A model generated the notes under the pieces. It saw only the letters and a program-made list of their open reading frames with translations. It was not told the origin of the DNA and ran no database searches. This document shows positions 11,096 to 34,161 of a stretch of DNA of 64,000 bases, piece after piece (position 1 is the first letter of the stretch; each line of letters begins with the position of its first letter). Source of the DNA: Paragyromitra xinjiangensis (lineage: Eukaryota; Ascomycota; Pezizomycetes; Pezizales; Discinaceae); the NCBI GenBank assembly GCA_038503065.1, contig JBCAMK010000002.1:2790001-2854000 (forward strand). Reading direction: 5' to 3'. Position numbers and translations under genes: made by a program.

Positions 11096-12120
11096 CTTCT
11101 GCGGCCATTTCGTCCTCGATTTCCTATTTTCTTCAGTTTTGTAGTTGTGGCAACCCCCCCTCGGCCTCCTAGAGGCCAGCAAATTTCTTTATCCGTTTCT
11201 TTATCCGTTTCTTTTTGTTTTCTTTTGGTTGATATATGATGGATACGCATGATTATTTTTTGGTAGGTCAAACCTTCTCCTATCCGGTTACCTAAATACT
11301 GACTGGCTTGTCAAGGTTTATGTATAGCGCTTACCGACCTCCCAGAGGTTGGCGGTCTTGGGTTTCCTATTCTTATTATTATACCAGATTCTTTATATGT
11401 TTTATATCCTTTTCTTTATATGTCGATTTAGAGGGTAGAGGGTAGAGGGGGCAGCAAGGCATGGATGAGTGCTGGTACGTTCCTTCCTGCCAATCGTTTG
11501 AGATCTAAAGCTGACTCTTAGGTAGCACCCAACGACCTTCAGGAGGCCGGCAGGATCTTTGTATTATCTTATTATCTGTATTATCTGTATTATTCCTATT
11601 ATTCCTACTATTCCTACTATTTGTATTATTCCTATTATTTGTATTATTTGTATTATTATGGTGGTAGTGATTAGATGTTAGATATCTTGGCATTTCTATT
11701 ATTGGCCTTGGGGCAGCAAGACATTGGCTGTTGCAGGTACCCTACTACCCTATCAATCTTTTATAGCTAAACGCTAACGTCTATGAGACAGTATTTGCCG
11801 ACCTTCAGCGGGCTGGTAGAAGGTCTTACTATCTTTATGGCGTCATTTGACCGGATTCGCTTAATTACTAATCATTTTAATGTATCTACAAATATATCTA
11901 CTAGCCGCTGCTGCTAGGTGTGGCAGCAGAGCTGAGGATCCGGTCATTTCCAGTCATAGCGTGCTTCCGTGGTAACCAATGTTTTGCGAGTCCGTGCAAA
12001 GCCCCTTTACTTATTCCCCCAAGCAGACGCCGACCACTCTCAGGCCGGTCAATACCTTACCTCTCATCCAAAAAGCTGTCGACTCCCTACTGAACAAACT
12101 CCTTTACCACTACAGAAAAA
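11096..12120. other. Spacer between Plavaka genes 2 and 3, with microsatellite
   Basis: About 1 kb without a gene. It contains several palindrome blocks (near 11,158, 11,336, 11,529, 11,800 and 12,030) and a TATTATTCC/TATTATTTG trinucleotide-like microsatellite at about 11,563-11,662. The corresponding region of copy 2 (33,111-34,161) has the same layout. Confidence 0.6.
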
Positions 12121-13708
12121 ATGATCAGAAATTCAGGTAAGAAAGCTAGCACTTCAAAACGCCATTCGATGCAGATAACAAAGCCTTTCCTACCACCCCC
12201 CCCCCTCCACCAGGAATCTGCCGTCTCGTGAGAGGTCGGTGGAAGAATATAGGGGGACGCAAAGCTATGAAGACACAGCAGAAGACGAAGACGAAGATGA
12301 AGACGAAGATGACGAAGACGAAGATGATGAAGATGAAGAGGAAAAGGAAGAAGGAGAAGGGGGAGAAGACAATAACGATGAGAATATAGGGCTTTTTCAT
12401 AGAACCTACGAGAGTGACGATTCAGATTATGAATCACCTCCGACCTTGGAGAGGCCGGCAGGCCCTTCCAAAAAGCCTACTGCAAGGCATCGAGAGATGA
12501 TACAGGCAAACCTCATTCGCAAAAAACTGGCAAGTACAATTAATTCTCACTGGCAAGTCATTTTTAATAGCCTACTAATGAGTGTGATAGGGCATGAATT
12601 TGGAGCCGGTACCGAGCAGCACCATGCCAACTCCTCTGCAGCTGGCACATGGTAGCCTGAGTAGTATGATCAACACGACTCATAGTCGCAATCGAGACCG
12701 AAGCGTGTTCTGCGCAGAAGACTCCCTGCAGCCTGTTGCTCGGCTTGCAAAGCTGTATATTGCTTCTTTCACCTACTTCAGGCATCCCTTTCCTGACGGA
12801 ATCGAGATGGCCAAATGGACAAAAAGAGCCTGGGCAACTGCTGAGAAGGATATGGGCGTAGTATGCCCTATCAGCAAATTGTGCTTCAACTTGGTATGTT
12901 GCCGGCCTCTGTGAAGCCGATTGAGTATTCTAACAGCTCTAAGCTAAAAGCAAAGCAATCGAGCACACGGTCCCAATTTCTCGCTCACATCAAAAAGAAC
13001 GTGTTGACTGCCTACAATCTTACGGATCTGAAGGAGGAAGAGCGCCAGAAGAAGATCGAATATCTGCTGGATGACGACAGGTTCACCTGTCACCCTGATG
13101 CATATAAGGTCAGTACAAACTCCTACTAGTATATGACGACCGCTGACGAGCTGGCAGAGTCTAGAGGGTAGATTCCTTGCCCCACAAATTCCCTTCCTGA
13201 TATTTAGTAAGTTTTATGAAGGTAAGAAGGCTCTCGGAAGGTTGGATAGAACCTTCATTGGGAGTATCAATACCATATTCATTGCAACGACTGCAGCAAT
13301 GATATATCACTGTCTTTCTGCTTGAAAAACAGGCGCCTATGAAGACCCCAAGGACTTCAACACCACAAACGCTCTCTGTAAGTTATGGACGACCTCTGGG
13401 AGGCCGGTATTCTCTGCTGACAAGATGATAGATCCTTGGCACTGTCAGCTGAACACAATACAGATCATAGATGTCGAGATTCGGGAAATGTTACTAAATG
13501 ATATCTGCCGCCAGATCAATGATCTTGTAGGGTATCTTCCCCCTTACAACGTGATACTAGCTCATGATATTAGCGAACGAAAGGGCACGTTGGCCCAGAT
13601 ATCGAGTCGCAGGATGCCTTCCGGGGAGATCAAGGACGACTAAAAGCAATACTGGAGCTGCGGAAGAGAAGCTCGTCGACGACCCTCCAGCAGCTGTATG
13701 CTCGGCAG
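12121..13708 (+). pseudogene. DUF6532-like Plavaka accessory gene, copy 1 (5' part)
   Basis: Collinear with the gene at 34,162-35,833: an acidic exon (Asp/Glu run near 12,280-12,360), the SRNRDRSVF exon, the LLDDDRFTCHPDAYK exon and the RMIDPWHCQLN exon. The last exon is interrupted at 13,708 by the LTR retrotransposon and resumes at 25,684 (to about 25,790). The conserved exon borders match copy 2, so introns can be inferred, but indels and stops are present. Not functional. Confidence 0.65.
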
Positions 13709-14095
13709 TGTGGTGGGGCGTGCGGGAGGTGAAAGGAAGCGATGGATAAGTCATGTGCGCGGTCACGTGTATAAGGGTTAGGGGTATTGACAGCGGAGGA
13801 TTTCTATTACTGTTCAACATTGCCTGTCGATTCTATTCCTATTCACTACTCTATTCTTTCCTATCTATCTATCTATTTTGTATCGTATTCCTTTGCGGCG
13901 GGCTCTTGCCTTGCCTAATTCGTATCGAATATATCCTTCCTATTCGCTCGATTCCACGCCTAATAATCCGCATATATGTGCCTCGCTATAGGACATCGAA
14001 GTCCGCGTCAACGCAGCCTCTTCTTCACAGCGCGAAGGCAGCGAATATCAGATCTCTGCGTCAAACTGGCAGAGTCTCCTACGCACTCGCCCACA
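13709..14095 (+). repeat. Left LTR
   Basis: 387 bp, TG...CA, one difference from the right LTR that I could see (T at 13,720 against C). A promoter is suggested by a CACGTG palindrome followed by GTATAAGG near 13,765-13,775. The near identity implies recent insertion. Confidence 0.93.
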
Positions 14096-15022: not shown

Positions 15023-15696
15023 CATCAGCAAAAAAAGTAATTGTCTTCCAGTGAGATTATGTCTTCTCAGGGAGCGAAGTTTCGTCAAGCCCTTTGGTAT
15101 CCCCAAAGGTGAGCAGTGCTACTTGAAAGAGGCTTTGCTACAATGATAATACAGTGTTTTCCACAGGCCTCACGTAGGGTAAGAATCGAGGTAATTCTGG
15201 GGGGTGACAGCGACAGCGACGACGATGTTTCTGAGGTAGAAACAGAGATGATATTTGGATAACAGTACAGTAGAAGTAAAGTAAGAAACGTTGCTTAAGG
15301 AAAGAAAGAAAGGAACAATCACAACCGCGGAAATCCATCGCTTATATACCCAATCTTCCTCTTTCTATGACTCATCCGTGACTCAACCATTCGAAGCAAC
15401 CCAACCGAATCACAAAGAAACACAACGAAATAATACAATAACTAATCCTTAACACCCCACATGTGCCTGACCTTATCCATGAAATGTCTTCAGGGCCTTC
15501 AGTGTCTTCCAGAAGGCCATATTGCATCTGAAGGACTGGAAGACAATTTTTCACTTTTGATATGTTATCATTCAGCCAAATCCGGGAACATATTTTTTGT
15601 CTTCCAGTGAGATTTTGTCTTCAGGGTCTTCAGGGTCTTCCAGAAGGCCATATTGCACCTGAAGGTCCTGAAGACAAATATCTTTTTTTGCTGATG
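15023..15696. mobile_element. MITE in gag, CATCAG family, TSD CA, with nested insertion
   Basis: Starts CATCAGCAAAAAAAGTAATTG and ends TTTTTTTGCTGATG, flanked by CA (15,021-15,022 and 15,697-15,698). Its own sequence (249 bp) is nearly the reverse complement of the intact MITE at 39,450-39,698. It is split at 15,065 by a LINE-derived short element with its own TSD. Interior blocks GTCTTCCAGAAGGCCATATT occur twice in it. Confidence 0.88.
15066..15484 (-). mobile_element. SINE-like LINE derivative (fused ends), TSD TGTCTT
   Basis: A 419-bp element on the minus strand. It has the 5' promoter region of the local LINE family (TTTCATGG start, TATATAAG, the CGCGGTTGTGATTG block) fused directly to the LINE 3' end (ACTTTACTTCTAC through CTCCCTGAG). 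TGTCTT flanks it on both sides (15,060-15,065 and 15,485-15,490). It lacks ORF1 entirely. A terminal hairpin CCTTTGG...CCAAAGG lies near the 3' end. It must be moved in trans by a LINE. Confidence 0.8.
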
Positions 15697-17942
15697 CATG
15701 GCGCCCCGCATTTCGATGGAAACGATGCCACGGATTTCCTAGAGCATTATGAGCTTCTATATGAAGAATTCGGAGAGTCGGAGAAGGCGGCTGTGAAGAA
15801 GCTCCCTCTCTATTGTGTCAGCTCTATTGGCGCCACGATTCGTTATTTGCAAGGATATGCAGATGAAGACTGGCAGGCGTTGCGCAGGGAGATTTTGGAG
15901 GAGTATAGAGCGCAGGATACGAAGCAGCAGATGTATACGGTAAGGTTTCTGGAAGAGCTGACTAATGCGCAGAAGAAGAAAACAGGTGATATACGCCCTT
16001 TTGTGCGCACCTTTACGGCAGTTTCCACCAGCCTAAAGGCCACAGGCATGCTTTCGGAGTATCAAGAGATTCAGCTGTTTCTGGGAGGGCTGCAATTAGA
16101 CCTCGCCAGGAAGCTGATAATCAAGTTCAAATTGGACGTCAACTTGCCCAGCTCCTTCCAAGGCAAATATGCCCTAATTAAGAAAGAAGCTCAGGATTAC
16201 TGCTTAGGCACACTTCGCACAGAAGAATTGATGAAGAAAGGTGAGTTTTCTTCAGAAGCACTTATTGATCAGCTTTTAGCGCAGGAAACGAAGCCGAAGC
16301 CTTCAGTATCAGCCAGTTTCGGAGGCTCGCAGCCGCAGCAGACTGCGCAAGTTGTGTAGCCAATTCAACGCCAGGCCCACAATATAGATGTCACGAGCGC
16401 AATCGACGACATTTTGAAGCGTATGGAAGCCATGGTTTTACGCCAACAGGCGCAATTTATGGAGAGTTTTAGCAGAGCCAACGTCGGCGCCAGTGCACCT
16501 CCGCCGCAAGCCTATAACGTGCCAGGACCTGCTTCAGGAGCAAATGCAATTCCGCTTCGGAATTCGCAGCCGGCTCAGCAGTACGCTCCGAATCCTCAGT
16601 ATGCGTCAAATCTTCAGTACGCTCCGGCAAGACGTTGCATCTTCTGTGCAGATCCTGCGCATTTGAAGAATCAATGCCCTGCTTTGATGGCCAAAGAACG
16701 CGCTGGATTAGTGCACAGGGCTGTAGGCGGGAGGATTCACTGGGGAGGAGAAGGGTCCGGAGGAGAGGTGGTTGAGCCATGGGAGAGAAGTACGGGAAGG
16801 AATATGCTGCAGCAAGTGGAAGCCCGAGAGCAGCAGCAACCTCCGCAGCCGCCACAACAGCCAGGCGTGAGGCGAATTAAGGCTGCGCCCAGTCCTAGCC
16901 GCGGTCCGAGCTTCAAAGTCAGAATGGCGCGTTTAGGGGAATTAGATGAAGAAAGCAGCGAGGAGGAGGTTGTGGAGGAAGAGTTGGAGTCGGAATTGGA
17001 TTCGGATTCGGAATCAGAGGAAGAGGCGAATTGGTACGTTTCTGCAGTCAAACCTGCGCGTGTGGAGAAGCGCAGGGCGCCAGTGAAGAAGGAGAAGGTG
17101 GAAGATCTGAGGAAAAGAATTGAGAGGCAGGAAGGGTTGCCAAATGCTCGGGCACCCAGGCCTAGAGCATATCCTCCAGTAGAAACTGTGGAAGTGGAGA
17201 TGCAGGAAGATAAGCCTACGAAGAAGCCGGAAAAGAAGCCCGTTGCGCCACGAAGAGCCCTTAAAGATGATGCCACAGGCGCCCCCTCCGAAGAAGAGCT
17301 TTTCCACAGACTGGCAACGGAAAAGTCGATCAATATCAGTATTTCAGAATTAGTCTCTATTTCTCCTCCCTTCAAGAAATATCTATACGGCAGGGGCGTG
17401 CCGCCAGCGCCAGCTGCGAAGGTTTCCAAAGCACACGCATCTCCACGCGATTCCCAGACTCGGAGAATTAGGCATCAAGTCGAATACGCTGCTGAGTCAG
17501 GCCTAATTCCCATCAGTATCAACGGCGTTTTGCTGCAGCCAACGGGAGATAATGGATCAGAAATCAATCGAATGGGTTGGTCGGAGTTCGAAAGTTTGAA
17601 TTTGCCATACGACGACCAAGTGGACTGGACCATGACTGGAATTACTGGAGATTCCACACCTCTGACTTGCTGTATTCACGAAGCGCCCGTTAGTGTGGGA
17701 GGTGCCGTGGTTTATACACCAATATTTGCATCTCCAGGAATGGAAGGCGAATTCGTATTAGGGCGCCCATTCGAGCGAGCTGCCTTACTAAAGTGGACGA
17801 ATAAGGACGACGGCTCAATGTGGGGCACTATTTGGTCCTCTGATCGCCTAAAGAAGGCCAAATTCATGGCAGTTCCGCCTGAAGGATATGCGCGCACTTC
17901 AGTACGGGAAGCAAAGGGGCAGTGGATGCGAAGGAGGCGTGA

Positions 17943-20900
17943 GCAGAGCTCGGGAAACGGGAGATCTCAGTAAGCGCGGAGGGGCTTACTGAGAAGAGGC
18001 GGCGGAAACCTCCAGAGGAAGTGGCGGAAGTGGAGGGTGTGGTCAGAAGAGCGCAGGAGACTCCGCATCGACGCGGAGTCTTGCGAGGTGCGGAAAGAGA
18101 GGTGCAGATGCGGCGGTGTATGGCAGTTTGGAATGAAATTCAGCGAGCGGGAAGTGGAGTAAGCAGCAGGAGGCTGTATAAGAATAAGAAGGAGAAGGTG
18201 CGCCCGCAGAACGTCAAAGGTGATGGCGGCGCTGCAGAAGGAAATCTGAATTGGAAGCAGGATTGCCTGAAGGAGGAAAGGAGGCAAGGGCTGGATAAGC
18301 CTGTTGGCCCTTTCGATCATATCCTTACGCCCAAATTCAGCAGTGTTCCACGAGGGTCTCGCCTCACGAAAGAGAGAATAGCGGAAATGGATATAGGCCA
18401 TCTTCAGCCGAAGGAGCGAGAGCTTTTGATGGAAATGCTATACAATAGGGAAGCTGCCGTGGCATTCGAATTCACAGAAATTGGCTTATTCAAGTCGGAA
18501 GTTGAGCCTCCACACGTGATTCGGACGATTCCACACGTGCCATGGCAGGAAGCTCCCTTCAAGACACCCAGAGCCCTGGAAGGGGAGGTTATCGAAATCC
18601 TAAAGGCGCGGATGGCAGGAGGCACTCTAGAGCGCTGCCGCGGGCCGTATCGAAATCCTTGGTTTCTAGTAAAGAAAAAGCAGGGTGGGCATCGATTAGT
18701 TGCCTCTTTCACTAAAGCCAACAGCCATACGATATTAGATGCGGCATTGCCTCCTAGGGTTGACGAATTCAGTGGGGAATTCACTGGAATGGCAATAGCT
18801 TCAATTATCGATCTATTCTCCGGCTATGATCAGGTGGATTTAGCTGAGGAAAGCAGAGATATGACTGCTATTCAGACACCTTTAGGCTTGCTTCGGTATA
18901 CTCGAATGGTGCAAGGAGGCACGAATTCAGTGCAGGCATTTCAGCGAATCAATTCCAAAGCGCAGCATGATAATATTCCAGAACGCTGCAGAGTCTTTCT
19001 CGACGACGTAGGTGTAAAAGGACCAACCTCGCGCTATGATGACGAGGAAATAAGCCCTGGAATTCGGAGATTCGTACAAGAGCATATCGTCAATTTGGAC
19101 CGAGTCCTAGCAGACTACGAGAGAGCAGGTGCCACAGTGGCGGGAATTAAGTCGTCCTGGTGCAAACCTGGAATTAAAATCGTGGGATTCGTCTGTACGG
19201 AAGAAGGGCGGTTTCCTGATGCAAAGAAGATGGAAAAGATCGTACTTTGGCCTGCCTGCGACTCAGTAACGGAAGTCCGAGCCTTTCTAAGAGTTGCCAC
19301 CTATTATAGGATTTGGATCGAAGGATTTGCAATTATCGCAGCGCCACTATTCTTCCTGCAGCGAAAAGGTGTGGTTTTCGTATGGGTGGAAGAACAGGAG
19401 GAAGCAATGGAAACGATCAAAAAGGCTCTTACTACTGCACCAGCGCTGGCTACGCCACAGTACGGACCACTGGCGGGATTGCTGATTTTGGGAGTGGATG
19501 CCGGAGGAGAAGGCTGGGGCGCAGTGTTGATGCAACTACTGGGAGATATAAGGCATCCTTGCAGGTATGAGAGCGGGTTGTGGGCGCCTGCGGAGAGGCA
19601 GTATGATGTGGGGAAGAAGGAGTGCAAAGGGCTGCTTAAAGCCCTGAAGAAGATGCGCTTTTGGCTCTATGGAGTTAGATTCCGTGTGGAAATCGACGCT
19701 CATACGCTGGTTCACCAACTGAATCTTCCTGCCAATGATCTTCCAGGTGCAATGGTCACTCGTTGGATTGCGTGGATTCGCCTCTTCGATTTTGACGTCG
19801 TCCACGTTCCAGGAAAGCAGCACACTGCAGCAGATGGATTATCGAGGCGTAAGGGGACTGAAGAGGATGTGGCGGAAGCAGAAGCGGAAGATGTGGAGGA
19901 ATTAGAGGAGTTCCTCGATGATCAACTATTCGCCAGCCGGGTAACCGCGGGAGAGTCCGCGTCGACGCGAGGTCCTATTAACCCCTTTGTATGCTTAGCC
20001 AAAGGAGAGTATAGTGGCCGTTGGCAGCAGATTGGCGAATTCCTGGAGTCTCTATCTATGCCGGAAGATCTCTCGGAAAAGCAGCGAAAGGCGTTTAGAC
20101 GAGAAGCAACTAAATTCCTAATTCGAGACGGGCACCTATTCCGGAGAGGTCATGAGAATCAGCCGCCAAAGCGAGTGATATGCCATGGACCAGAAAAGCA
20201 GCAAATCCTGAAGGGTCTCCACGACGAATCAGGGCATAGAGGCAGAGAAGGCACGTTTAAGAAGATATCTCAGCGCTTTTGGTGGCGTGGATTAGCCAAA
20301 GATGTGGAGGAATTTGTTCGAACCTGCGAGCAATGCCAACTTCGAGCCTCCGCCAGATATCCCGACGAATTACACCCTACATTTGGCACTTCGCTATTCG
20401 AGAAGGTCTGTGTAGATATCGTGCATATGCCTGCTGGAAGTGATCGAAATCGGTATCTAGTCCTCGCTAGAGATGATTTCTCAGGATGGGTGGAAGGACG
20501 TGCTTTGACTAGAGGGAGCTCGGAGAAGGTGGCGGATTTCCTATTCCAGGAGGTGATTTCACGATTCGGATGCCCTAGGAAGATTGTGGTGGATGGAGGG
20601 CCAGAGAATAAGACATTTACGGAGCGCCTGTGCAATCGGTATAATATCAATAGAAAGGTCGTTTCTGCATATCATCCATGAGCAAATGGGCTGGTCGAGC
20701 GTGGGCATCAGCAAATAGTGGATGCTTTGCAGAAGATCTCCAAACAGCCGAAGGATTGGCCTAATCATCTCCACTCCGTCCTTTGGGCTGATCGAATTAC
20801 GGTCAGAAGATCCACAGGAAAGGCGCCTTTTGAGCTCGTTTTTGGTTGGCAGTGTGTGCTTCCAGTGGAAATAACCTTGAGTTCGTGGGGCAGTATTGAG

Positions 20901-21470
20901 TGGCAGGATATCCACTCTAGGGCGGATTTATTGGCAGCTCGGGCCAGGCAATTGGAGATGCGAGATGAGGATATTGAGGAAGCAGCGATTCGCCTAAAAG
21001 AAAGCAGGTCGGAGAATAAGCGGTATTTCGACTCCCATAGGAGAAAACGGCCTAATTCGCAGACCTTAAGCGTTGGTGATCTCGTACTTCTCCATAATAC
21101 GAAGCTGGAAAAGCAATGGAGTGATAAACTGGCGAATAGGTGGCGTGGACCCTTTCGAATCCGGGAAATATCTCCTGTAGGCACCGTGGTTTTGGAGGAG
21201 CTCGATGGCACGCTTTTAGGCGGTACTACGCCTCCAGACCGTGTTAAGCGCTTCTTTCAACGCGCAGGAGAAATCGCAGAGGAAATCGCAGAAGATCTCG
21301 CAGAGGAATCCGCTGAAGAGTTAGGAGAGGAGGACGCGGAGGTGTCCGCGTCGACGCAGGAAATGCCAGAGGAGGCTGAAGATGTGGAAATAGAGGAAGA
21401 TGTTTCTGTGGTTGGTGGTAAGCGTGTGAAGCCTAAGAAAGACTGGGGCTTCTACGTGCAGTTGCCTTAA
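17943..21470 (+). pseudogene. Retrotransposon pol: reverse transcriptase, RNase H, integrase
   Basis: The frame opens at 17,943, overlaps gag-protease by 31 nt in the -1 frame, and lacks its own needed start, as expected for a Gag-Pol fusion. RT: the YxDD-box variant FLDD is at 18,996-19,007, preceded by the conserved SxIDLFSGYDQV and TPLGLLRYTRM blocks. RNase H follows (GVDAGGEGWGAVL, then EIDAHTLVHQLN and DGLSRR). Integrase has an HHCC finger at about 20,221-20,335 and the D,D-35-E core region up to AYHP. TGA at 20,679-20,681 truncates it just before the conserved ANGLVERGHQ. The frame then continues through the C-terminal integrase domain (LSVGDLVLLH, WRGPFRI) to TAA at 21,470. The C-terminal tail is strongly acidic. 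Confidence 0.9.
17952..17994 (+). promoter_or_regulatory. -1 programmed ribosomal frameshift signal (gag-pro to pol)
   Basis: The heptamer G GGA AAC (17,952-17,958) is in the correct X XXY YYZ phase with the gag codons TCG GGA AAC. After a 6-nt spacer comes a perfect 11-bp stem, 17,965-17,975 (TCTCAGTAAGC) with 17,984-17,994 (GCTTACTGAGA), with an 8-nt loop. The gag stop codon TAA (17,971-17,973) is inside the stem, and pol is open in the -1 frame across the site. All three elements match known eukaryotic -1 frameshift signals. Confidence 0.85.
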
Positions 21471-22153
21471 TACCACTAAAGGGGGGTCCCTTACGAGTTT
21501 CTTTTGTACCGTTTCTTTGGATTCTTATTCGCTGTTTCTTCGTTTCTTGCTATATTCCTTCGTCTATTCCTCGTCAGCTCGTCGTTTCTTTCATATATTT
21601 CCTTCATGTATTCCTTTATCTACTATTCGTCGTTTCTTTTGTATACTCCTCGTCAATTCGTCAGTTGATTCGTCTCTATTTGCCTGTATTTCCTTCGTAT
21701 TATCTAGTCGTCTATTCCTTCGTATATTCCTCAGTCAATTCCTGTTTAATTCCTTCGGAGTTCTATGTTTCTATTAGCTGTATTTTTCCTATTTTTGTAC
21801 CTGTATTTGGCGGATTTATTGTATTTTCCTATGTTTGGCAGTGGTCGAAGTTGAATTAAAGTTGGGGCTCTGCGGGAATCGCCGGCGGAATAGAGCTTAG
21901 GGCTATGACGCAGAGGTATCAGAAACGCCATGACCTCTTCTTTATTAGGAGGGGAGGGGGAAGCAAACCTGCTTCCTAGGACTAATCCCTTACATCTCTC
22001 GCCTAAGGAAGGATCTTGTCGAAATCTCTGCAATCAGTTTGACTCCTTCAAGTTGACCCTCGATATCAAGTTGCCTGCCTGCCACCAAAGCTTATACCCA
22101 TATCAGCGCTTTCAAGTTGGGCGCCATTTCTTTGTTTGCTTTACTACGTCAAC
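21471..22153 (+). promoter_or_regulatory. CT-rich spacer and internal polypurine tract before the extra ORF
   Basis: After pol there is about 400 bp of TTC/TCG-rich sequence (21,490-21,850) without genes, typical of CT-rich fungal promoter regions. At 21,947-21,967 lies a purine run starting AGGAGGGGAGG, the same core as the true PPT at 25,284. The extra ORF begins 190 bp later. Either this is the promoter of the extra ORF or a duplicated former 3' end of the element. Confidence 0.5.
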
Positions 22154-25129
22154 ATGAAACAGCAGCGCGCCATGTTCACTCCCATAAATGACTCGGCTGG
22201 CCCCAGCACTCCAGAGGGCAGAAAAACGAGAGGCAGCAGCAGCAGATCAGAGTCGTTGTCGCCGAATACAGTCAAGAAAATGGTACACAGAGCGCCGAAG
22301 ATTTCAGGCCATACGGGCACCAACGAAATCGTCGAAATCACGAGAGAAAGCGTACTGCAGCAGCGCGCCAAACATGGCCTGCACAGTCTAATCAAGAAGA
22401 CCATGGCAGCGCACAAAGATCCCGTATCTCGTGCCGCTGTTGCTAAGGATGCCCTGGAGGTATTTGCAGAGGCGCGGGAGGTTTCAGATGAGGGAATCTC
22501 ACGGATTTGGGCCGATTATGTGGAGAAAGAGGGGCTATGGGATCAGTTTGGTGGAGAAGAGGCGTTTAGAGCCATGATGGATTATGATAACGTGATCGCG
22601 CCAGCGCAGGAGCGTTATAGAGCCACAGATGGCAGGAAGGAGAGGGTGAGGAAGTTGATCTGTGAGAAGTGGGGCGACCAATGGGAGGAGGAGTTCGATC
22701 CACAGGAGTACCGCTTGCGCCAATTCTCAGAGCATTTCCTACGTCAAGTAGCGGCAATTGCTAGAGATGGGTGGTCAATGAGCCAAGCCTGGAAGGCGCT
22801 GGATGCAGGTTATCGAATGCGTCTGCAAGATCGAACCTCCGGCCAACAGAAAGCCTTGGTATTTATGCCTAAAGATGTAGCATATGCCAAGGAATGGTTG
22901 ACGAAGGCAGGAGAGGGGAAGGAGACGAAAGAGGAGGTTCGGGATGAGGATTTGGTGTTGGCGTGGCCTGTGGAGGTTAGGCCGAAGCAGACTAAGCCGA
23001 AGGCTGCTAAGAAAGGGAAGGGGAAGTCGCTGGAGAAGGTGGTGGAGGAAGAGGAAAGTGGGGCGGAAGAGCAGGACTCTGCGTCGACGCAGACTCCTCA
23101 GTCGCGGAGTACGGAGGTGCCTGGTGTTGTGGTAGAGGAGGATGAGGTGGCTGGTAGGGCCGTGGAGGCGCAAGCGCAGCGCCAACAAGAGAAAGGGAAA
23201 GGGAAAGGGAAGGAAGTGGAGGAAGAAGAGGCGGAAGAGGAGGAAATCCATAAGTCTGAAGCGTGTGGCTGTGGAGAATATCTCTCCAAGGCATGGGTAT
23301 CTAATCTGCGCAAATATCGAAGTGCAGAGGTGGTACCGCTTGCCTCACAAGGGAAATATCTGCTGGATGGCGTGGAGGCAGGGCTTGATAATCTGTGCTG
23401 GGAGCACTTACAGCGGCTGGCATCGTACGTTGGCCTGTATGTCAAGCGCCTGAACCGCGCGGAGATGACGCTGCGCCTGCAGCACATCCACAGGCAGTGG
23501 AATTCAATAGGGAATCTTCACGCTGCCGCAGCGACTTATGACTGGTTTAGGAAAGGAGCGAGGGCTAGAGTGGAGGCGGATGATTTGGGATCTTTGCTGT
23601 GGAAGCCAATTCTGTGGGAACTTCCGCAGTTTGATAAAGGAGAAATCTTTGCGCGCTTTGGCAGTCAGGAGGCTTGGGATGCGTTTCTGGAGAAAGGCAA
23701 TTGCGTGGTTCCGGCGTTTAGGTGGTTGACGGAGGAAACGGAGCTTTGGGCTAAGATCTCGGAGGAATTCGACCTATATCTCCACCATCAACGGAGTGAT
23801 TCAACAGGCTGGCTGCGGAATTGCTATCATTCCGTATTACAGCAGGCAATTAGGCAAGATCCCGTGTATTACGTTTTGGTGTTGGCTGCGAGGTCGGACC
23901 GCGCCTATCGAATGTTAGCCTTTCTTCACTACGCTAAGTATTCGCTGCCTGGAGATTATACGCAATTCCGCCATACAGATCTGAATCCTCGGAAGGCGTT
24001 AGATACGGGCGTAGGAGTGAATCACATCCAAACCTCGCTCTCGCTGGATCAGGGGATTCCGGAAGGCTGTACTGCGGTCGTTGAGGGCTTCCAGAATCAC
24101 CTCGCGGATTGGTGGGCTCGTGTGGAGGCGCGCGGAGATGCCAAGGATGGGAATTCTTTCCGGACCACTAAGACGTATTTGCAAGAGGATGAGGCGTCAT
24201 TTGGCAAGGAAACGAACGTGGTTTGCGCACCTGGAGACCTTCGAATCTCGTTGCCACACCTAATTCACGGAGCAACTGCCGGCGCCAAAGATAAGGCAAT
24301 TCTGCAGTGGAGAACGGTGAATAATTGGCCCACAGCCATCCAGGGAGACGGAGAAGCCATGGAATTCCTGGAGATGGGCTCACGCGCCGATATCGCTGAA
24401 GCGCACCGTTCGCTGACCGTGCTGCCACGGAATCCTACTGGGCAAATTAACGCCCATAGCCGCCCTAAAGCATGCTTTGCGAGTACGCCAGAGGTCCGAG
24501 GTGTGTGGGGAATCCGAGATGCGCTGCTGGGAATGGTGGATTGGGAGTCCGCTCGTGTGCGTTGGGAGTTGGAGATCTTGCTGGGGGCAGATGAGCGGAA
24601 GGCGTGGAAATTGGTGAGAAAGGTGTGGAGGAAGTTGATGGAGGCTATGTGGGAGGGGTATAAGGTCCAGGAGTGGGCGGAGAGGCGAGATTTCGGCCCG
24701 AATTCCTATTTCCACGCCAGAGATACGGGCACTTGGGAGCTTCCAATGCGAATTACCAAGGAAGGCAAGGAGTCGTTGCTGCGTGGAGGCTATTGGCTGG
24801 CAGGATTTGGTTCGGATGTGGAGTCGGAGGTGGAGGATTCGGAGGTGGAATTAGGCTCTCCTATTAGGAAGGAGTCGGAAGTGGAGGTGGAGAAGGAAAT
24901 AGAGCCCGAATTGGAGGATCCGCCTGTTGATGTCGCTGCTGCAGCTGCTGTTGCTGCTAAGGATTCGTCTGCTGCTGACGTTGCCCCGCCTGCTGCTAAT
25001 GAGGATATGCCTCCTCCGGAGACTTGCGAGTTAGCAGAGCCTGTGTCGACGCAGTCTCCTGCTAAGCGGAAACTTTCCTCGTCGTCGGAAGGGAAGAAGA
25101 AGCGACGGAGGAAGCGAATGAATTGGTAG
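22154..25129 (+). CDS. Extra retrotransposon ORF, 2OG-Fe(II) dioxygenase-like protein
   Basis: An uninterrupted frame of 991 codons from ATG 22,154 between pol and the 3' PPT, where some elements carry env. It is not envelope-like: I see no signal peptide or clear TM segment. Residues about 275-370 are Lys/Glu-rich and low in complexity. The C-terminal third looks like a double-stranded beta-helix oxygenase: H607-T-D609 (candidate Fe ligands), a strand-rich stretch GVGVNHIQTSLSLD, the TAVVEGFQNHLADWW block, then CAPGDLRISLPHLIHG with a candidate distal His at 705 and a Lys nearby where relatives have Arg. The N-terminal 250 residues match nothing I know. The C-terminus has an Ala-rich stretch and a basic KKKRRRKR-type tail that could be a nuclear signal. 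The intact frame contrasts with broken gag and pol. Fold assignment is by motif only. Confidence 0.6.
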   Translation: MKQQRAMFTPINDSAGPSTPEGRKTRGSSSRSESLSPNTVKKMVHRAPKISGHTGTNEIVEITRESVLQQRAKHGLHSLIKKTMAAHKDPVSRAAVAKDALEVFAEAREVSDEGISRIWADYVEKEGLWDQFGGEEAFRAMMDYDNVIAPAQERYRATDGRKERVRKLICEKWGDQWEEEFDPQEYRLRQFSEHFLRQVAAIARDGWSMSQAWKALDAGYRMRLQDRTSGQQKALVFMPKDVAYAKEWLTKAGEGKETKEEVRDEDLVLAWPVEVRPKQTKPKAAKKGKGKSLEKVVEEEESGAEEQDSASTQTPQSRSTEVPGVVVEEDEVAGRAVEAQAQRQQEKGKGKGKEVEEEEAEEEEIHKSEACGCGEYLSKAWVSNLRKYRSAEVVPLASQGKYLLDGVEAGLDNLCWEHLQRLASYVGLYVKRLNRAEMTLRLQHIHRQWNSIGNLHAAAATYDWFRKGARARVEADDLGSLLWKPILWELPQFDKGEIFARFGSQEAWDAFLEKGNCVVPAFRWLTEETELWAKISEEFDLYLHHQRSDSTGWLRNCYHSVLQQAIRQDPVYYVLVLAARSDRAYRMLAFLHYAKYSLPGDYTQFRHTDLNPRKALDTGVGVNHIQTSLSLDQGIPEGCTAVVEGFQNHLADWWARVEARGDAKDGNSFRTTKTYLQEDEASFGKETNVVCAPGDLRISLPHLIHGATAGAKDKAILQWRTVNNWPTAIQGDGEAMEFLEMGSRADIAEAHRSLTVLPRNPTGQINAHSRPKACFASTPEVRGVWGIRDALLGMVDWESARVRWELEILLGADERKAWKLVRKVWRKLMEAMWEGYKVQEWAERRDFGPNSYFHARDTGTWELPMRITKEGKESLLRGGYWLAGFGSDVESEVEDSEVELGSPIRKESEVEVEKEIEPELEDPPVDVAAAAAVAAKDSSAADVAPPAANEDMPPPETCELAEPVSTQSPAKRKLSSSSEGKKKRRRKRMNW

Positions 25130-25296
25130 GAGAGCGGAGTCTTAGGAGGGGAGGTTTCTTTGGTTGGTTTGGTCTGTTTCTCGTTTCGTTCTGTTTCTCG
25201 TGTTTCCTACGTATAGATTAGCATATGATTCCTTTGTTTCCTCGGTTTTGGAAGGGGGTTAATGGCCAGGGGACGGCCATTGTAGGAGGGGAGGAT
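25130..25296 (+). promoter_or_regulatory. 3' untranslated region and polypurine tract
   Basis: A short TTTC/TCG-rich stretch like that after pol is followed by AGGAGGGGAGGA (25,284-25,295), directly before the right LTR. This is the expected plus-strand primer for reverse transcription. Confidence 0.8.
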
Positions 25297-25683
25297 TGTG
25301 GTGGGGCGCGCGGGAGGTGAAAGGAAGCGATGGATAAGTCATGTGCGCGGTCACGTGTATAAGGGTTAGGGGTATTGACAGCGGAGGATTTCTATTACTG
25401 TTCAACATTGCCTGTCGATTCTATTCCTATTCACTACTCTATTCTTTCCTATCTATCTATCTATTTTGTATCGTATTCCTTTGCGGCGGGCTCTTGCCTT
25501 GCCTAATTCGTATCGAATATATCCTTCCTATTCGCTCGATTCCACGCCTAATAATCCGCATATATGTGCCTCGCTATAGGACATCGAAGTCCGCGTCAAC
25601 GCAGCCTCTTCTTCACAGCGCGAAGGCAGCGAATATCAGATCTCTGCGTCAAACTGGCAGAGTCTCCTACGCACTCGCCCACA
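25297..25683 (+). repeat. Right LTR
   Basis: 387 bp, TGTGG...CCCACA, matching the left LTR with one visible difference. It is followed by GCGG, the right TSD, and then by the remainder of the interrupted Plavaka gene 3. Confidence 0.93.
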
Positions 25684-26060
25684 GCGGGCTCGGCAGTCAA
25701 GCTCCGGCCCAAACCCTAGTGACCCGATTGAAGAAGTGGCTGCCATCCTGGCGGCAATCCCTGCCTCAGAGGGAAATGGCACCTAGGAGCTTGCTGACGA
25801 CCTCGCACGAGCCGACATGAAGAATAGGAAAGGCTTTGGGGGTCGAGTAAGAGGAAGGATAGAGAAGGGAAGAGAGAGGTGAGGTGAGCGGAAGGAGGAG
25901 AGGCAGCCAAGGATATATGTAATAGTAGAGTAATAGACTAGAGCGTTTCAAGGAATATATAGCCATTTTACAACACGCCTGAATATAAGCCTCCTAAAGA
26001 TATGGCTACACGATCATGAGCATCCGTGATCTTCAGAACGTCAGATCCAGAAAGAATGCG
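25684..26060 (+). pseudogene. Remainder of Plavaka gene 3 and 3' region, copy 1
   Basis: About 100 bp of the last exon (to about 25,790; LEEVAAILAAIPASE-like in the right frame) continues the gene cut at 13,708. Then comes non-coding Plavaka sequence with a palindrome block (GACGACCTCGCACGAGCCGAC near 25,797). Its counterpart in copy 2 is 35,730-36,105. Confidence 0.65.
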
Positions 26061-26307: not shown

Positions 26308-26549
26308 CGTCCGGACTGTAGGAGGTCGTCAAGGTCTCTGAGAAGAACGATGTCGAAGCAGAGCCATCCAGAGGCTGGGCTACCACAATAGTTGCGAAAG
26401 GGGTCATCAGGACTGACGACCTCCCAAAGGTCGCCTCCGGGCGCAGAGAGCAGAGTCTACAACCTGAGGGAGGGCTATATTCCGCCCCGACCACCCGAAG
26501 CGTCTGATGCATTGGGCGCACCGGGCGACATTTCAATTTTTTGCTGATG

Positions 26550-27032
26550 CGGTCCGCCCAATGCATCAGGCGACCGGAGCGGTCAGGGCGGAATATAGCC
26601 CTCCCTCAGGCTGTAAATTTTGCCCTTCACATCTGGGCGACAGCTTACTAGAGGTCGGCATGGGGGCGCGCCAGGTTCAGGAGGCTATTCTCTGGGCGGC
26701 CACGGAGGGTAGACGAGCGTCTGGAAGACAGCAGGGGGAGAGCAGTGTGCCCACAGAATCACATTTTCAGCAGGTCACCCTGTGGTCTAGTTTGAATGCT
26801 TTTGCCCATATGCTTGTTTACAATTGTTCTATTATTTCTATATAGCTCTATATGTACATGTATCTGTTCTTCATATCCAAGGAGTAGAGGGGAGCGGAGC
26901 GGAGGCAGCGGAGGCTCCTGCAGCGAATTGACCATATGGGGCAGGCAGCGGAAGCTGCTGCAGCAAATCGATCAATTGACTGAGGCGGCGGAAGCTCAGG
27001 CAGCAGATCGACCATATGGCGCAGGCAGTGGA
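26550..27032. other. Outer-element segment between the two Plavaka copies
   Basis: This belongs to the outer composite element. It starts CGGTCCGCCCAATGCATCAGG, the continuation of the terminus begun at 6056, and includes an AT-rich stretch near 26,790-26,880. It ends with two to three units of the CATATGG minisatellite (about 26,890-27,032), where Plavaka copy 2 inserted. No gene. Confidence 0.65.
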
Positions 27033-27977: not shown

Positions 27978-30900
27978 CTAGTATATGTCGTTGAACGTCT
28001 CAAGATCCACTCTACTATTTACATACCAATAGCCCTCTTCTAGATCTGGCACCAGATGCGCCATCCCTGTAATCGAAGCAACACTCACAACCCACTCGTC
28101 GTTACTAGGAATCCTTACATTACGAAGACGAACTCTTAACAAGCTGTTGTCGGCCTCCAGGAGGCCGGTGCCTTCCAATTGAAGCATCTTGACGAGCGCA
28201 AGCCGATGGGTACGTCCCGAGCTCGGATCGCGAAGCTTAAACAAGCATTTCAATCGGCCAGGTAAGCGCCCACGCAAGGCACCATATTCAGTCTCGTTTC
28301 CTACCATAACCCAGACCCAGTCATTCCTTGCAGCCCCTCCTCAAAATGGCATATTAATTGTGCATCGAAGGTGGTGTATGGTATAGAGATCGGTCTCTTG
28401 GAATTTGAGCATAGGGACCTGAAGCTGGGTAAAGCGCTCCGCTGGGCACAGTCTTAGCTTGATGTTGTTGGTTGGCAACCTCTGGAAGTCCGGCAACGTA
28501 CTGTTATATGACTCTACCTTCTGCACTAATAGACCCTTGGTATCACCAATATCCAGCATCACATCTTCCAGGGATTGGGTCAAACGGGCGCTTATACGTC
28601 CTCGGAGGTAAGATGGGGGCTTTCTTTCCGCTCTAATATGCGGCTCGCACCAGGCTGGAACCTTTTCCTTCTCTAGGAGTTCTCTCACATCCTTTGGGAG
28701 TGATCCTGCCGGCCTCTCACGAGTCGCCTCCCGAATAGATATGATACGCATAGCCATCATGTGCCGACGAGAGTAGTGTTCTAAGATCTGCTTGGTTGCA
28801 TTAATTTTATTCGAGGCGCGATAACCGACTTTGATCTGTTCTCGATGTGAGGCTTCACCGACCTCTGTGGAGTAGGCGACGATATTACCGAATTGCCTCA
28901 CATGTGTGCTGAAGTGGGTCAATAGGTGCATCTTGATGAAGTTGAAATGAGATTCCTGACGGTAGATATCCTGGCGCTGTTCTGGCCTCTCAATTCTTTC
29001 TTCCACCACTACCTTCCGCCTCTTCGCCGTACTCTGAGAGGCCGTCAACAATTCCTCCTGAGCTTGCCGCATGGCTTTGTTAGCTTTCTTTGCTTTCGCA
29101 TTCGTCGCCTTCGACTTGCGGAATTCGAGGAAGATATCCTTATGCTCGTGGAAGTCCTTCAAATAGCCTTCCATATAGGCAATAGTCTGTTCAGTGTGGC
29201 TGCGATATTGAGCCATTAGGTGGAAATCTATCAAGGCTCGGATACAGTTAAGAGCTTTTTTGAACGCCGGCCTTTCAGAGGTCGTCGGCTTCCGCAGAGC
29301 AATCGTGACCGCCACCAGGAGGAATCGACCAAGGTTCCGCATCTCTTTGCCCTGCCACTGGGTCACCTCTCGATAGGCCTTTTTGGGAACTGTGATGCCC
29401 GTATAGGGGGGGATGGACTTCCATACTTTGTCAAATTGGTCGAGTCGGTTGTATTTGCCAAGGAAGCCTTGAATCCATTCCATCATATGCTTCAAAAGAC
29501 CTAAATAGACTGTATGTAAAAGGTCGGGTTTCCAGAGAGCTTCTGGCCGGACTCTGGGAAGCCGCCAGAAGCTGTTCATCAGTGCTTTCATACCTCTCTG
29601 CTGCAGCCAGTCTAGATCCCCTATTGAGCCCGTCTCTTGATAATGTTTTACTCGAGCTTTGTAGCTATCGTGATTGCGTACTGGGAAGGGCTGCGTACAA
29701 AGCTGACCAAGGCTAGAGGCGTCAACCTCGCAGACTGGGCATGCATTATTCTTCAGATGCTGGAGGGTGACGTGCTCTAAATGGTCTGCCAACCAGCCGC
29801 AGACTACTGGAAAGCAGAATCGCAACTGACCATCAGCACATGGAAGCTGAACACCATTTGTTGCCGGCTCATGGAGGGTCGACATAGTTTTTTCCATGGC
29901 GAGATCAAGAACCGCGCGATTTCTTGACCTTTGCGCTTCAGCAGCCTTGATCTTCAACTTGCCAACTTTTGGCGGGACGGGAAGCAGTGCCAGCAGCAGC
30001 GATGCCATTGCGGAAGGTTTGTTTCGAAGTGTGGATTTGATATTGCCTATCGTCAAATAGATAGGCCAAGCCTTTTTATCGCCTGAGAAGTTGGTAAGAT
30101 GTGTTTGATCCGACGAGCAAAGAATTGGAATTAATGTGGAGCCAGCGGGAAGGGTTTCCTACGACTGGTTAGCAAGCTTTGACGACTCCTGGAAGGTCGG
30201 AAGAGTAACCTGGAGATCCCACCACCAATCAGCTGTATGCATTTCTGAATACATCCTTTCGCCGGCAGGGTTGAATTCCTTCACTGGAGCGTAGACCATT
30301 TCTCCTGAATATGCCGTCTGGGCCAGCAAATATCGTATACAAACCATAGGATCGCGATGGCAGAATACAAAAGGCTCTCCATCAATCTCCTCCTCTATAA
30401 AGGTCCAACTAGGCTCTCCTAAGGTCGTAGGCAGGTCTTTGATGACCTTGTAAAGGGTGTAGGCAGACCGATAGGAGCTGGCACCAAGGTAAAGACCTTT
30501 CTTGAAGTATTCCTCGATGCCAGTCTTCGTCGTTTTGGTATCAATAAACCATTTGGCTAAATGGAAGTCATAAGCGGTGTGGAAAGGAAATAGAGGGAAT
30601 TGGAGCAAGCTTTCCTGAGTTTCTAGGAAGCCTGGCACGTTCCCTGCCGACCTCCCTGCGTCCGGTAGGAAGCTTTGGCTGATATTTGGAACTTCGACCG
30701 CATCATTATCGTTGTCTTCGGCATCAGAGGCTGTAGCTGGTTCTTCGTCTGAATTATTGTCCGAATCGTAAATTGATGATCTATCGCTCCTTTCGTCCAG
30801 TAAGTCCTCTGCCGGCTCCTCTCGATCCGTCAGTGAGTCGTCAAGATAAACTTCTGCTTGTTCAGGGTGCTTGGTCAAGATATGGGTCATCAAAGCTGAG

Positions 30901-31199
30901 CTGTAGTCGTAGGAATATCGACAAAAGGGGCAGCGGTCTGGCATGTTTGGAGATTTGGTAGTAAAAGGGGTAGCGAGGTGTTGTGGGATAATAGGGGACT
31001 TATGGTCCGGGAGTGACGACCTCTGGAGAGCCGGGAAAGAGCTCATAGCACTCTCAGCCGTGTCTTCGGGGGTTGAGATCAGGGGTTGAGCTGACGTTGG
31101 GGGTTGATATGGCGCCTGATTCAGAATAAGAGCCGCAACGCAACAGCTTGGACCTTTGCAGCCGACGCAGCCTACTTTGAAGCTCAGCGACCAGCTCAA
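27978..31199 (-). pseudogene. Plavaka transposase with one premature stop
   Basis: Two-exon model: exon 1 31,199-30,210 (330 codons), intron 30,159-30,209 (51 nt, gctaac branch point), exon 2 30,158-27,978. The frame is continuous except for TGA at 28,341-28,343 (codon 936 of about 1057), where copy 1 has CGA. A C2H2 zinc finger is at residues 90-111 (CX2CX12HX4H), probably for DNA binding. It is followed by an acidic linker and the Plavaka catalytic region with WKPDLLHTVYLGLLKHMM, HFNFIKMHLLTHFSTH and EVGEASHREQIK blocks. The product should bind the element ends and cut and paste them in the nucleus. The stop would remove the last 120 residues; readthrough or partial activity cannot be excluded. 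The start codon is the most upstream ATG and is uncertain. Confidence 0.85.
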
Positions 31200-31592: not shown

Positions 31593-33110
31593 ATGGCAGA
31601 TATGGCGCCTCTAACCGAGTCAGAACCAAGCAGAGCAAACAAAACCCCCCCGCCCAATCTAAACAATCAAACAACCCCACCAAACAGTGTACCGACCTCT
31701 CGCAAGCCGTCGCAAACAGATCCATCCTTACGACGAATATCCCCAAGCTTAACCCCCCCCCGACAAAAAACTCCAGTATATCGATCACCCCGGCAATCAT
31801 CAACCCAACCGACCTCCCCCAAGCCGGCAAGCACCCCTACCAAGATGCCGCCCCGCGCCAGAGCGACTGAAATGACTGCAGCAGATCTCAAAATAGTGTT
31901 GGGCTTCAGCGCAACCAACAATCAAGCCTATTTGATTGTTCGTGATGATATTGTTTCCTACACTATTCAGCATGGTATCACAGGCGTCGACACCCCTGGA
32001 AAGGCTGCCTGGACTGCTTGTGAGGAGCACGCAGTCAGCCACAAATACCTGAGCCGCTTCAAGGAAGCCTACGAAGGAGCAGGGCCAAAGGAGAATACTG
32101 CAGTCGTTCAGAAGGCTATCAAATGCCTTTGCCTTGACGCTATCAAGAAGAAGAACGCTGCCAGAGCAGCAGCGGATAAGCAGATGGCAGATAATGGTGA
32201 CTTTGACGGGCCTGCTGCCGGCCTCACTAGAGCCGTCGCTGCCGCTGGTGCTGCTGGCGCTGCTGCACCTTCACCTTCCCGCATCATTCAGGTCCGCATC
32301 GTCGATCCTGACATAATTGGTGCCTACGACAGCGATGCACCTCTACCACGCCAGACAAGCGGATATGGCTGGGACCCAGCTAATACCATTTTCCAGAAGC
32401 TGACAACCTTCCCAGAGCCGGTCACGCACCGTGATATCTTGACATACGCAGCAAAGCATGTTGCTGAGAATCGTCGCGCTCGTGCAGTTTGGGGAGCTCT
32501 TGTCCCCATACCTGAAGACTTTCGGATATCTACTAACGATGAGATGATTCTCAGCGAGGATGACGAGGTGACGGCCTGGCTGAGGTTGACAGCGGCTAAC
32601 CCCCCGGTTGTGAACGTTTTTCTTCATCGGGTTACTGCCAAAGGAATGCGATCGCGCCAAACCCCGCCGCCCTCTGGCGAGTGGGCACATATCTCCAAGC
32701 GCTATTTCGCCTCTCTTCTCGAGGACCCTGCCGAGGATTCTGACGAGGACGACCGCCCGCTTCGGAAGAAGTTTAAGCCGCTGCCGCGTACAGATAGGGG
32801 CTTCCAAGCTCGCGAAAGGAAGATTCGGGCACGAATCTTGCGCCAGCAAGAGCTCCTGGAGTCAATCAAAGAGCATCACAAGGAGATAACGCCAGACGCC
32901 ATATTTTCTGATGAGGAAGGGTTTGAGAACAGGTATATGTCGGCCGCTCAGAGGCGGGCAGCTAGGGAAGCGGTTAAGGCAGCAGCTGAAGCGGAGGAGG
33001 AGGAGGAGTTGGAGGAGGAGGAGGAGGAGGAGGAGGAGGATAAAGAGGAGGAGAACGACGGAGGGGATGGGAAGGGTGGGGCTGACGAGGATGTTGGAGC
33101 TACCGCTTAG
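31593..33110 (+). CDS. Plavaka accessory protein, function unknown
   Basis: An intact 505-codon frame. Residues 1-84 are Pro/Ser/Thr-rich and disordered; an internal ATG (residue 85, MPPRARATEM) is an alternative start. Residues about 90-170 look like a compact helical domain (LKIVLGFSATNNQAYLIVRD to YLSRFKEAYEG). The middle part has Ala-rich and Asp/Glu-rich stretches, and the C-terminus is a run of Glu followed by Asp/Gly. I recognise no family. It is divergently placed from the transposase and conserved in copy 1, so it is likely part of the transposition machinery or its control. The pieces PTSRKPSQT and PTSPKPAST are encoded by copies of the palindrome motif. Confidence 0.75.
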   Translation: MADMAPLTESEPSRANKTPPPNLNNQTTPPNSVPTSRKPSQTDPSLRRISPSLTPPRQKTPVYRSPRQSSTQPTSPKPASTPTKMPPRARATEMTAADLKIVLGFSATNNQAYLIVRDDIVSYTIQHGITGVDTPGKAAWTACEEHAVSHKYLSRFKEAYEGAGPKENTAVVQKAIKCLCLDAIKKKNAARAAADKQMADNGDFDGPAAGLTRAVAAAGAAGAAAPSPSRIIQVRIVDPDIIGAYDSDAPLPRQTSGYGWDPANTIFQKLTTFPEPVTHRDILTYAAKHVAENRRARAVWGALVPIPEDFRISTNDEMILSEDDEVTAWLRLTAANPPVVNVFLHRVTAKGMRSRQTPPPSGEWAHISKRYFASLLEDPAEDSDEDDRPLRKKFKPLPRTDRGFQARERKIRARILRQQELLESIKEHHKEITPDAIFSDEEGFENRYMSAAQRRAAREAVKAAAEAEEEEELEEEEEEEEEDKEEENDGGDGKGGADEDVGATA

Positions 33111-34161
33111 CTTCTGCGGCCATTTCGTCCTTGATTTCCTATTTCCTTCAGTTTTGTAGTTGTGGCAACCCCCCCTCGGCCTCCTAGAGGCCGGCAAATT
33201 TCTTTATCCGTTTCAAGTTCTTTTTGTTTTCCTTTGGTTGATATATGATGGATACGCATGATTATTTTTTTGGTAGGTCAAATTTCCTCCCGCGCGGTTA
33301 CCTGATTACTGACTGGCTTGTGAAGGTTTATGTATAGCGTTTACCGACCTCCCAAAGGTCGGCGGTCCTGGCTTTCCTATTCTTATTATTATTATACCGG
33401 ATGCTTTATATGTTTTATATCCTTTGTTTTATCTGTTGCTTTAGAGGGTAAAGGGGGCAGCAAGGCGTGGATGAGTGCTGGTACGCTCCCTCCTACCAAT
33501 CGTTTGAGATCCAAAGCTGACTTTTAGGTGGTATCCGACGACCTTCAGGAGGAAGGCAGGGTCTTTGTATAATCCTATTATCTGTATCATTCCTATTATC
33601 TGTATCATTCCTATTATCTGTATCATTCCTATTATCTGTATCATTCCTATTATCTATATTATTTGTATTATTTGTATTATTATGGCGGGATCGATTAGAT
33701 GTTAGATATCTTGGCGTTTCTATTATTGGCCTAGGGGCAGCAAGGCACTGGCCGTTGCAGGTACCCTACTACCCTATCCATCCTTTATAGCTAAACGCTA
33801 ACGTCTAAGACAGTATTTGCCGACCTTCAGCGAGCTGGTGAAGGGTCTTACTATCTTTATGCCGTCATTTGGTTGGATTCGCTTAATTATTAATCATTCT
33901 TATGTATCCACAAATATATCTACTAGCCGCTGTTGCTAGGTGTGGCAGCAGAGCTGAAGATCTGGTCATTTCCACAGTCATAGCGTGCCCCGTGGCAACC
34001 AATGTTTTGGGAGTCCGTGCAATACCCCTTTACTTACTCCCTCAAGCAGACGCCGACCTCTCTCAGGCCGGTCACTACCTCACTGCCACTACCTCACCTC
34101 CCACCCAAAGAGCTGCCATCCCTTACAGCCCGACAAACTCCTTTGTCACTCTACTGAAAGA
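33111..34161. other. Spacer between Plavaka genes 2 and 3, copy 2
   Basis: No gene. Palindrome blocks occur near 33,177, 33,343, 33,537, 33,820 and 34,054. A TATTATCTG/TATCATTCC microsatellite runs about 33,562-33,682, longer and more regular than in copy 1. Confidence 0.6.

Follow-up and report, generated by a model that had tools for sequence, protein, structure and literature searches.

Ty3/Gypsy elements of the orchid Phalaenopsis carry an additional open reading frame (ORF) for an AlkB-type 2-oxoglutarate-dependent dioxygenase, which is kept through replication (PMC9289625). TET/JBP genes of the PU, AG and PE types occur in DNA transposons of fungi, including Pezizomycetes, and an anti-silencing role has been proposed for them (Kojima, 2025; PMC12730594). 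Retrotransposons of dinoflagellates and charophytes carry genes for DNA methyltransferases (DNMTs) (PMC5890265). In this study, a Ty3/gypsy long terminal repeat (LTR) retrotransposon was analyzed in the window, i.e. the whole 64,000-nucleotide stretch C2:2790001-2854000 of the 48.2-Mb, 22-contig genome of Paragyromitra xinjiangensis, with emphasis on its third gene, ORF3, which lies between pol and the polypurine tract (PPT) and is predicted to encode an oxygenase.

Like the orchid elements, the ORF3 element is a Ty3/gypsy LTR element with an extra ORF of the 2-oxoglutarate (2OG)-Fe(II) oxygenase kind (PMC9289625). The orchid elements belong to a plant, are 25 kb long and encode an AlkB protein with demonstrated m6A RNA demethylase activity (PMC9289625), whereas the ORF3 element has a fungal host, a predicted PhyH/Gig2-like fold and a basic C-terminus. 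An AlkB identity of the orchid type gained no support: no AlkB-family Pfam match was listed for ORF3 or the family proteins. With the TET/JBP transposons the ORF3 element shares a mobile-element-borne 2OG oxygenase in Pezizomycetes and the anti-silencing proposal (PMC12730594); it differs in being a retrotransposon whose oxygenase is not recognizably TET/JBP. The DNMT retrotransposons also have an enzyme gene aboard, there for DNA methylation, and differ in carrying a writer rather than an oxygenase and in belonging to other lineages and element classes (PMC5890265). An earlier note on this DNA had called an oxygenase in the env position of such an element new to its author; the orchid elements are a precedent for an oxygenase ORF in a Ty3/gypsy element (PMC9289625).

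Among the papers listed in searches of the open-access literature, none dealt with PhyH-like oxygenases of LTR elements, nor with a PhyH/Gig2-like oxygenase as a third gene that is constant and under selection in a fungal LTR element. In the ORF3 family, the constant and selected gene of a fungal LTR retrotransposon belongs to a different oxygenase class, with relatives in three named Pezizales genera. It makes the countering of methylation-based silencing by a retroelement testable, through a defined protein, open copies, host DNA methylase matches and a CpG-linked footprint.

Conservation of ORF3 among copies and relatives

Comparison of its copies shows ORF3 to be the third gene of a family of fungal Ty3/gypsy-like retrotransposons, constantly present and under selection. 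The uninterrupted frame of 991 codons described in the earlier note was recovered from ATG to TAG with no internal stops, far beyond the longest stop-free run (333 codons) in 1000 simulations under a first-order Markov model of the ORF3 sequence. A search of the host genome with the ORF3 protein gave 63 matched stretches, grouped as at least 21 copies and two fragments. In 20 of the 21 copies, the retrieved sequence has the same tail and LTR behind ORF3; the locus retrieved for the remaining copy (L024) ends too soon to show them, yet an LTR sits just behind ORF3. Whether sister copies share the frame had been proposed as a test, and the same ORF3 was found beside all 18 close pol loci among the matches listed, the remaining pol matches being at 26-29% identity. 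No close sister element without ORF3 was seen among the 51 of 193 pol candidates that were scored.

Host-genome searches with the relatives P0001 and P0006 found solely the ORF3 family. Named relatives come from Peziza echinospora, Maublancomyces gigas and Kalaharituber pfeilii, all Pezizales, P0004 being the Kalaharituber protein, and homologues are 34-50% identical in the catalytic columns; P0001-P0008, compared as proteins, may likewise lie in LTR elements. A protein search with a three-row domain alignment gave zero matches among 6148 candidates, and no ORF3 relative turned up when contigs of viral and prokaryotic genomes were scanned by pattern.

Selection was estimated from nonsynonymous (dN) and synonymous (dS) substitution rates as pairwise NG86 counts, which ignore the shared ancestry of copies that are moreover mosaic. 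Both regions were available for nine of the 21 copies; over their 36 pairs, the ratio of summed dN to summed dS amounted to 0.051 in pol, 0.093 in ORF3 and 0.062 in ORF3 residues 483-860. In the 21 pairs formed by the seven copies with a fully open frame, the ratio over the whole ORF was 0.07-0.13, save for 0.50 between the window copy and L002. On these counts, ORF3 is constrained in the family almost like pol, whereas the window copy is not. Several comparisons speak against constraint: the close pairs of the window copy with L002, L011 (0.54) and L016 (0.45) span 0.45-0.54, and its ratio with L006 is 0.22 over the whole ORF and 0.62 in the catalytic part. The catalytic-part ratio of L004/L013 is 0.60, on a dS of only 0.004. 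We read the high ratios in close pairs as recent, unselected changes after insertion. The window copy has 20 private changes, one of which replaces Arg719; because 15 of them are nonsynonymous and only five synonymous, its openness is attributed to youth. The earlier note had left selection and youth side by side as reasons for the open frame: selection acts on the family, and youth accounts for the window copy, whose private changes look neutral at 15:5.

The mosaic character is seen in L003-L009 and L013 (with L039-L046), where the nearest relative by pol disagrees with the nearest by ORF3. Between L004 and L007, dS is 0.005 in pol and 0.235 in ORF3; between L004 and L013, it is 0.052 in ORF3 and 0.456 in pol. 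Template switching between RNAs packaged together would be expected to give such conflicts.

Three ORF3 copies were without pol among the matches listed, namely the C21 element and two 5'-truncated ORF3 copies (C10 and C18). The C21 element (L047 with L002; G000:C21:577108-584987), 7.9 kb long, has an open ORF3, both LTRs and part of gag but matches the pol query over just 211 bases, and is a deletion derivative retaining the oxygenase gene.

Predicted fold, active site and other parts of ORF3

The following parts of ORF3 were mapped on the window.

22154..25129, + strand: ORF3, predicted PhyH-like oxygenase protein, 991 codons
23264..23407, + strand: conserved CxC-x(41)-CxxH motif, putative zinc site, residues 371-418, leading into predicted helices
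23630..24523, + strand: predicted catalytic double-stranded beta-helix domain, residues ~493-790, mapped by alignment from residues 419-741 of the P0006 model
23972..23980, + strand: HxD motif, HTD in the window copy and HID in the other 20 copies
24266..24268, + strand: distal metal-ligand His705, in 21/21 copies and 9/9 family proteins
24308..24310, + strand: residue 719, putative 2OG-binding position, Trp in the window copy, as against Arg in all 20 remaining copies and 7/7 relatives covering the site
25094..25117, + strand: C-terminal basic stretch KKKRRRKR, putative nuclear localization signal, intact in 18/20 own-genome rows reaching it

HTD at residues 607-609 and His705 are both present where the earlier note had placed them. 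The HxD...H triad occurs in all 21 own-genome copies; among the nine family proteins, HxD is found in eight and the distal His in all. A double-stranded beta-helix was predicted in the AlphaFold model of relative P0006, which is 34% identical to window residues 366-900 and 38% identical in the catalytic columns, and the oxygenase layout proposed earlier is thereby upheld on a relative rather than on the window protein. The best solved-structure matches to this model are small-molecule enzymes or Gig2/YbiU proteins. Enzymes of the Gig2/PhyH class have an HxD...H triad and a late Arg; Gig2/YbiU (DUF1479) and the PhyH-class enzymes EctD, GriE and SptF share with the ORF3 family the predicted fold, the triad and this Arg at the last strand, and differ in being free-standing cellular enzymes with 11-18% aligned identity to the P0006 model. 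The role of residue 719 in 2OG binding is putative, by analogy with PhyH enzymes. From sequence and model, the fold of ORF3 is almost certainly that of an Fe(II)/2OG oxygenase of the PhyH/Gig2 class, and an active enzyme is likely in at least some copies; the window copy has probably lost its activity.

Several results weigh against this assignment. HxD is missing in relative P0002. The P0006 model has a predicted template-modelling score (pTM) of 0.48, five models have a mean predicted local distance difference test score (pLDDT) of 49.8-66.4, and Foldseek TM-scores are modest, the best row reaching 0.43 by target with a root-mean-square deviation of 13.4. The sole AlphaFold model of the window protein (residues 366-900, three-sequence alignment) was useless, with a pLDDT of 35. 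No Pfam family reached its cut-off for ORF3, and neither the whole ORF at E<=1 nor two pieces at E<=10 gave a match. A PhyH profile scan of the host genome did not pick out ORF3. For PF05721 (PhyH) itself, with a cut-off of 22 bits, the best score was 19.6 bits (P0006); five of the nine family proteins matched below the cut-off and the window ORF did not match. Because the score lies under the curated cut-off, ORF3 is called PhyH-like and is not assigned to PF05721. Neither an NCBIfam search of ORF3 nor a Protein Data Bank (PDB) search with a nine-row family profile (best E 0.25) found anything relevant. Three PDB sequence matches of ORF3 to ThsA (E 0.12-0.49) were judged to be chance, and this identity was rejected.

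The N-terminal part is helical in the P0006 model and is followed by an acidic low-complexity linker. The CxC...CxxH motif, spanning 44-49 residues overall, is kept in eight of nine family proteins, and together with the helices it may form a putative zinc and helical DNA-binding module. The helices past the motif look SAP-like to us, an assumption to which Pfam gave no support. The protein is rather likely to be nuclear; L009 and L016 have a stop codon at the last residue of KKKRRRKR. Two results count against such a module and location: the Cys/His and helical region had no relevant Pfam match, and the relatives are without the C-terminal basic stretch, a loose pattern giving short basic clusters in the linkers of only some of them.

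Insertion sites and methylation context

Forty LTR places were listed and 19 5' flanks were read. CG stands at positions -3,-2 in 18 of these 19 (14 elements and four solo LTRs), the window copy being the exception, with a binomial probability of ~1.5e-23 at the window CpG frequency of 0.046. CpG is also present in 15 of 16 3' flanks in one set (exception L012), in all four solos and in two more, the window copy having GCGG. Among L048-L065 and the window copy, 17 insertions could be checked, and 15 of them have matching 4-bp NCGN target duplications at the two ends, the mismatches being C15 and the window copy (13705-13708 versus 25684-25687). The CpG preference is most simply ascribed to the integrase, and its co-occurrence with an oxygenase gene may be coincidence.

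In the black truffle, another Pezizomycete, methylation prefers CpG (PMC4165359) and is directed at transposons (PMC12730594). The host genome has DNA methylase matches in four stretches at three places. Private transitions of ORF3 copies are enriched at CpG overall (odds ratio 1.6, p 0.009); private changes of the C-to-T type fall at CpG in 8/16 cases in the window copy, 8/12 in L006, 6/13 in L010 and 14/25 in L012, suggesting methylation of some copies. Against this, the enrichment is modest and is lacking in several copies, e.g. L003 (0/17). A gross signature of repeat-induced point mutation (RIP) was not seen, C>T/G>A changes exceeding the reverse in only two of 21 rows compared with the window copy (L010 and L012), with no dinucleotide RIP index run.

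Proposed function and alternative explanations

As the most likely mechanism, it is proposed that the ORF3 protein would be produced along with the element, move into the nucleus, bind DNA or chromatin via the Cys/His and helical module, and oxidize a base or mark at that site, which might let new or already resident copies evade methylation-based silencing by the host. A nucleic acid or chromatin substrate has about an even chance of being correct, and the anti-silencing role with its full chain is given a probability of about 0.4. Two points tell against the proposal: oxygenase activity and substrate are both putative, and known PhyH-class enzymes act mostly on small molecules. A more specific form, in which the element integrates at CpG and the oxygenase acts on a mark or chromatin protein in that CpG-methylated chromatin, is doubtful. 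The PhyH/Gig2 class is not known to act on nucleic acids; if true, the CpG-centred system would add a nucleic acid or chromatin oxygenase of this class to biology.

The best solved-structure matches to the P0006 model, being small-molecule enzymes or Gig2/YbiU proteins, would suit a captured metabolic PhyH/Gig2-type oxygenase acting on a small molecule or protein and aiding the element indirectly, e.g. via host physiology. However, the acidic linker, Cys/His motif and basic tail of ORF3 are atypical of metabolic PhyH enzymes. PhyH and Gig2-like genes exist separately in the host, and comparison with single pieces of them gave probabilities of 2.1 and 4.7, which speak neither for nor against a host parent; such a captured enzyme is considered unlikely. 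Catalysis might instead have been abandoned, the fold serving as a DNA-binding or integration-targeting factor, perhaps tied to the CpG preference of the insertions. Active-site residues have indeed been lost in P0002 and in the window copy; however, HxD...H persists in 21/21 copies and Arg719 in 20/21, and integrase explains CpG choice more simply, which makes a non-catalytic factor quite improbable.

The earlier note had pointed to the TET/JBP-type oxygenases of fungal DNA transposons when naming a chromatin- or nucleic-acid-modifying role as one hypothesis. A TET/JBP-type 5-methylcytosine oxygenase would share the superfamily fold and a plausible role, and TET-like genes do occur in the host genome. 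The predicted fold is PhyH/Gig2-like, and neither TET/JBP nor AlkB gained support: no Tet_JBP match appeared at E<=10 (two ORF pieces, P0001 and P0002) or E<=1 (P0003-P0008), and all 21 copies covering the site have HxD, as opposed to the HxE of the Pezizomycete PE type (PMC12730594). In a comparison of profiles, four own-genome TET-like proteins scored a probability of 1.6, which carries little weight because the PhyH and Gig2 pieces likewise scored only 2.1 and 4.7; the comparison does not tell the families apart, and sequence points to no close parent. No TET structure stood among the 50 structural matches listed to the P0006 model or in a second such listing, which does not exclude likeness. 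A TET/JBP enzyme is very unlikely. A passenger gene caught by chance and open only through youth would fit the young window copy, with its single LTR mismatch, 15:5 private changes and ratios of 0.45-0.54 to the nearest copies; it is highly improbable given that ORF3 and pol have similar dN/dS ratios in copies whose dS is mostly 0.2-0.3, and that homologues share 34-50% of residues in the catalytic columns. For an envelope-like protein only the position between pol and the PPT speaks; with the oxygenase fold predicted in a relative and no hydrophobic membrane segment in ORF3 (maximum 19-residue mean 0.89), its likelihood is close to negligible.

Tet_JBP-like sequences occupy eight places in the host genome (L031-L038), two of them over the cut-off and none of them ORF3; L033/L034 and L035/L036 are near-identical pairs. 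These places are possibly borne by DNA transposons.

Element structure and neighbouring features

The remaining parts of the element are as follows.

13709..14095, + strand: 5' LTR, 387 bp, TGTGGTGGGG...CGCCCACA
15562..17973, + strand: gag region, broken in the window copy (ORFs 15562-16359 and 16414-17973)
18021..21470, + strand: pol with reverse transcriptase (RT), RNase H and integrase; frame broken between 20681 and 20718 in the window copy
21471..22153, + strand: pol-ORF3 spacer; like DNA precedes ORF3 in most sister copies, with 80-100% identity where matched
25282..25296, + strand: polypurine tract, abutting the 3' LTR
25297..25683, + strand: 3' LTR, 387 bp, differing from the 5' LTR at one site

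The LTRs, the PPT and the domain order RT, RNase H, integrase identify a Ty3/gypsy LTR retrotransposon. The gag region has a Retrotrans_gag match (E 0.0071, 17 bits) under the Pfam cut-off of 24.1. Interruption of gag and integrase beside an open ORF3, as described earlier, is true of the window copy; unlike it, sister copies have pol frames open up to 1211 amino acids. The purine motif of the PPT, AGGAGGGGAGG, at 25284-25294, also occurs ~200 bases 5' of ORF3 (21947-21957) and shortly past its stop (25144-25154), and the extra copies might be additional priming sites.

A Plavaka DNA transposase (28341-31199, - strand; Pfam E 7.6e-35 and 2.7e-17), split over two frames, adjoins the retrotransposon. 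Direct repeats at 10000-11952 and 32036-33974, 85-99% alike and ~22 kb apart, bracket both (the search started at 10000) and may have arisen by duplication or be terminal repeats belonging to a larger element. An inverted repeat at 26447-26626, with 77-nt arms of 82% complementarity set 26 nt apart, resembles a small miniature inverted-repeat transposable element (MITE).
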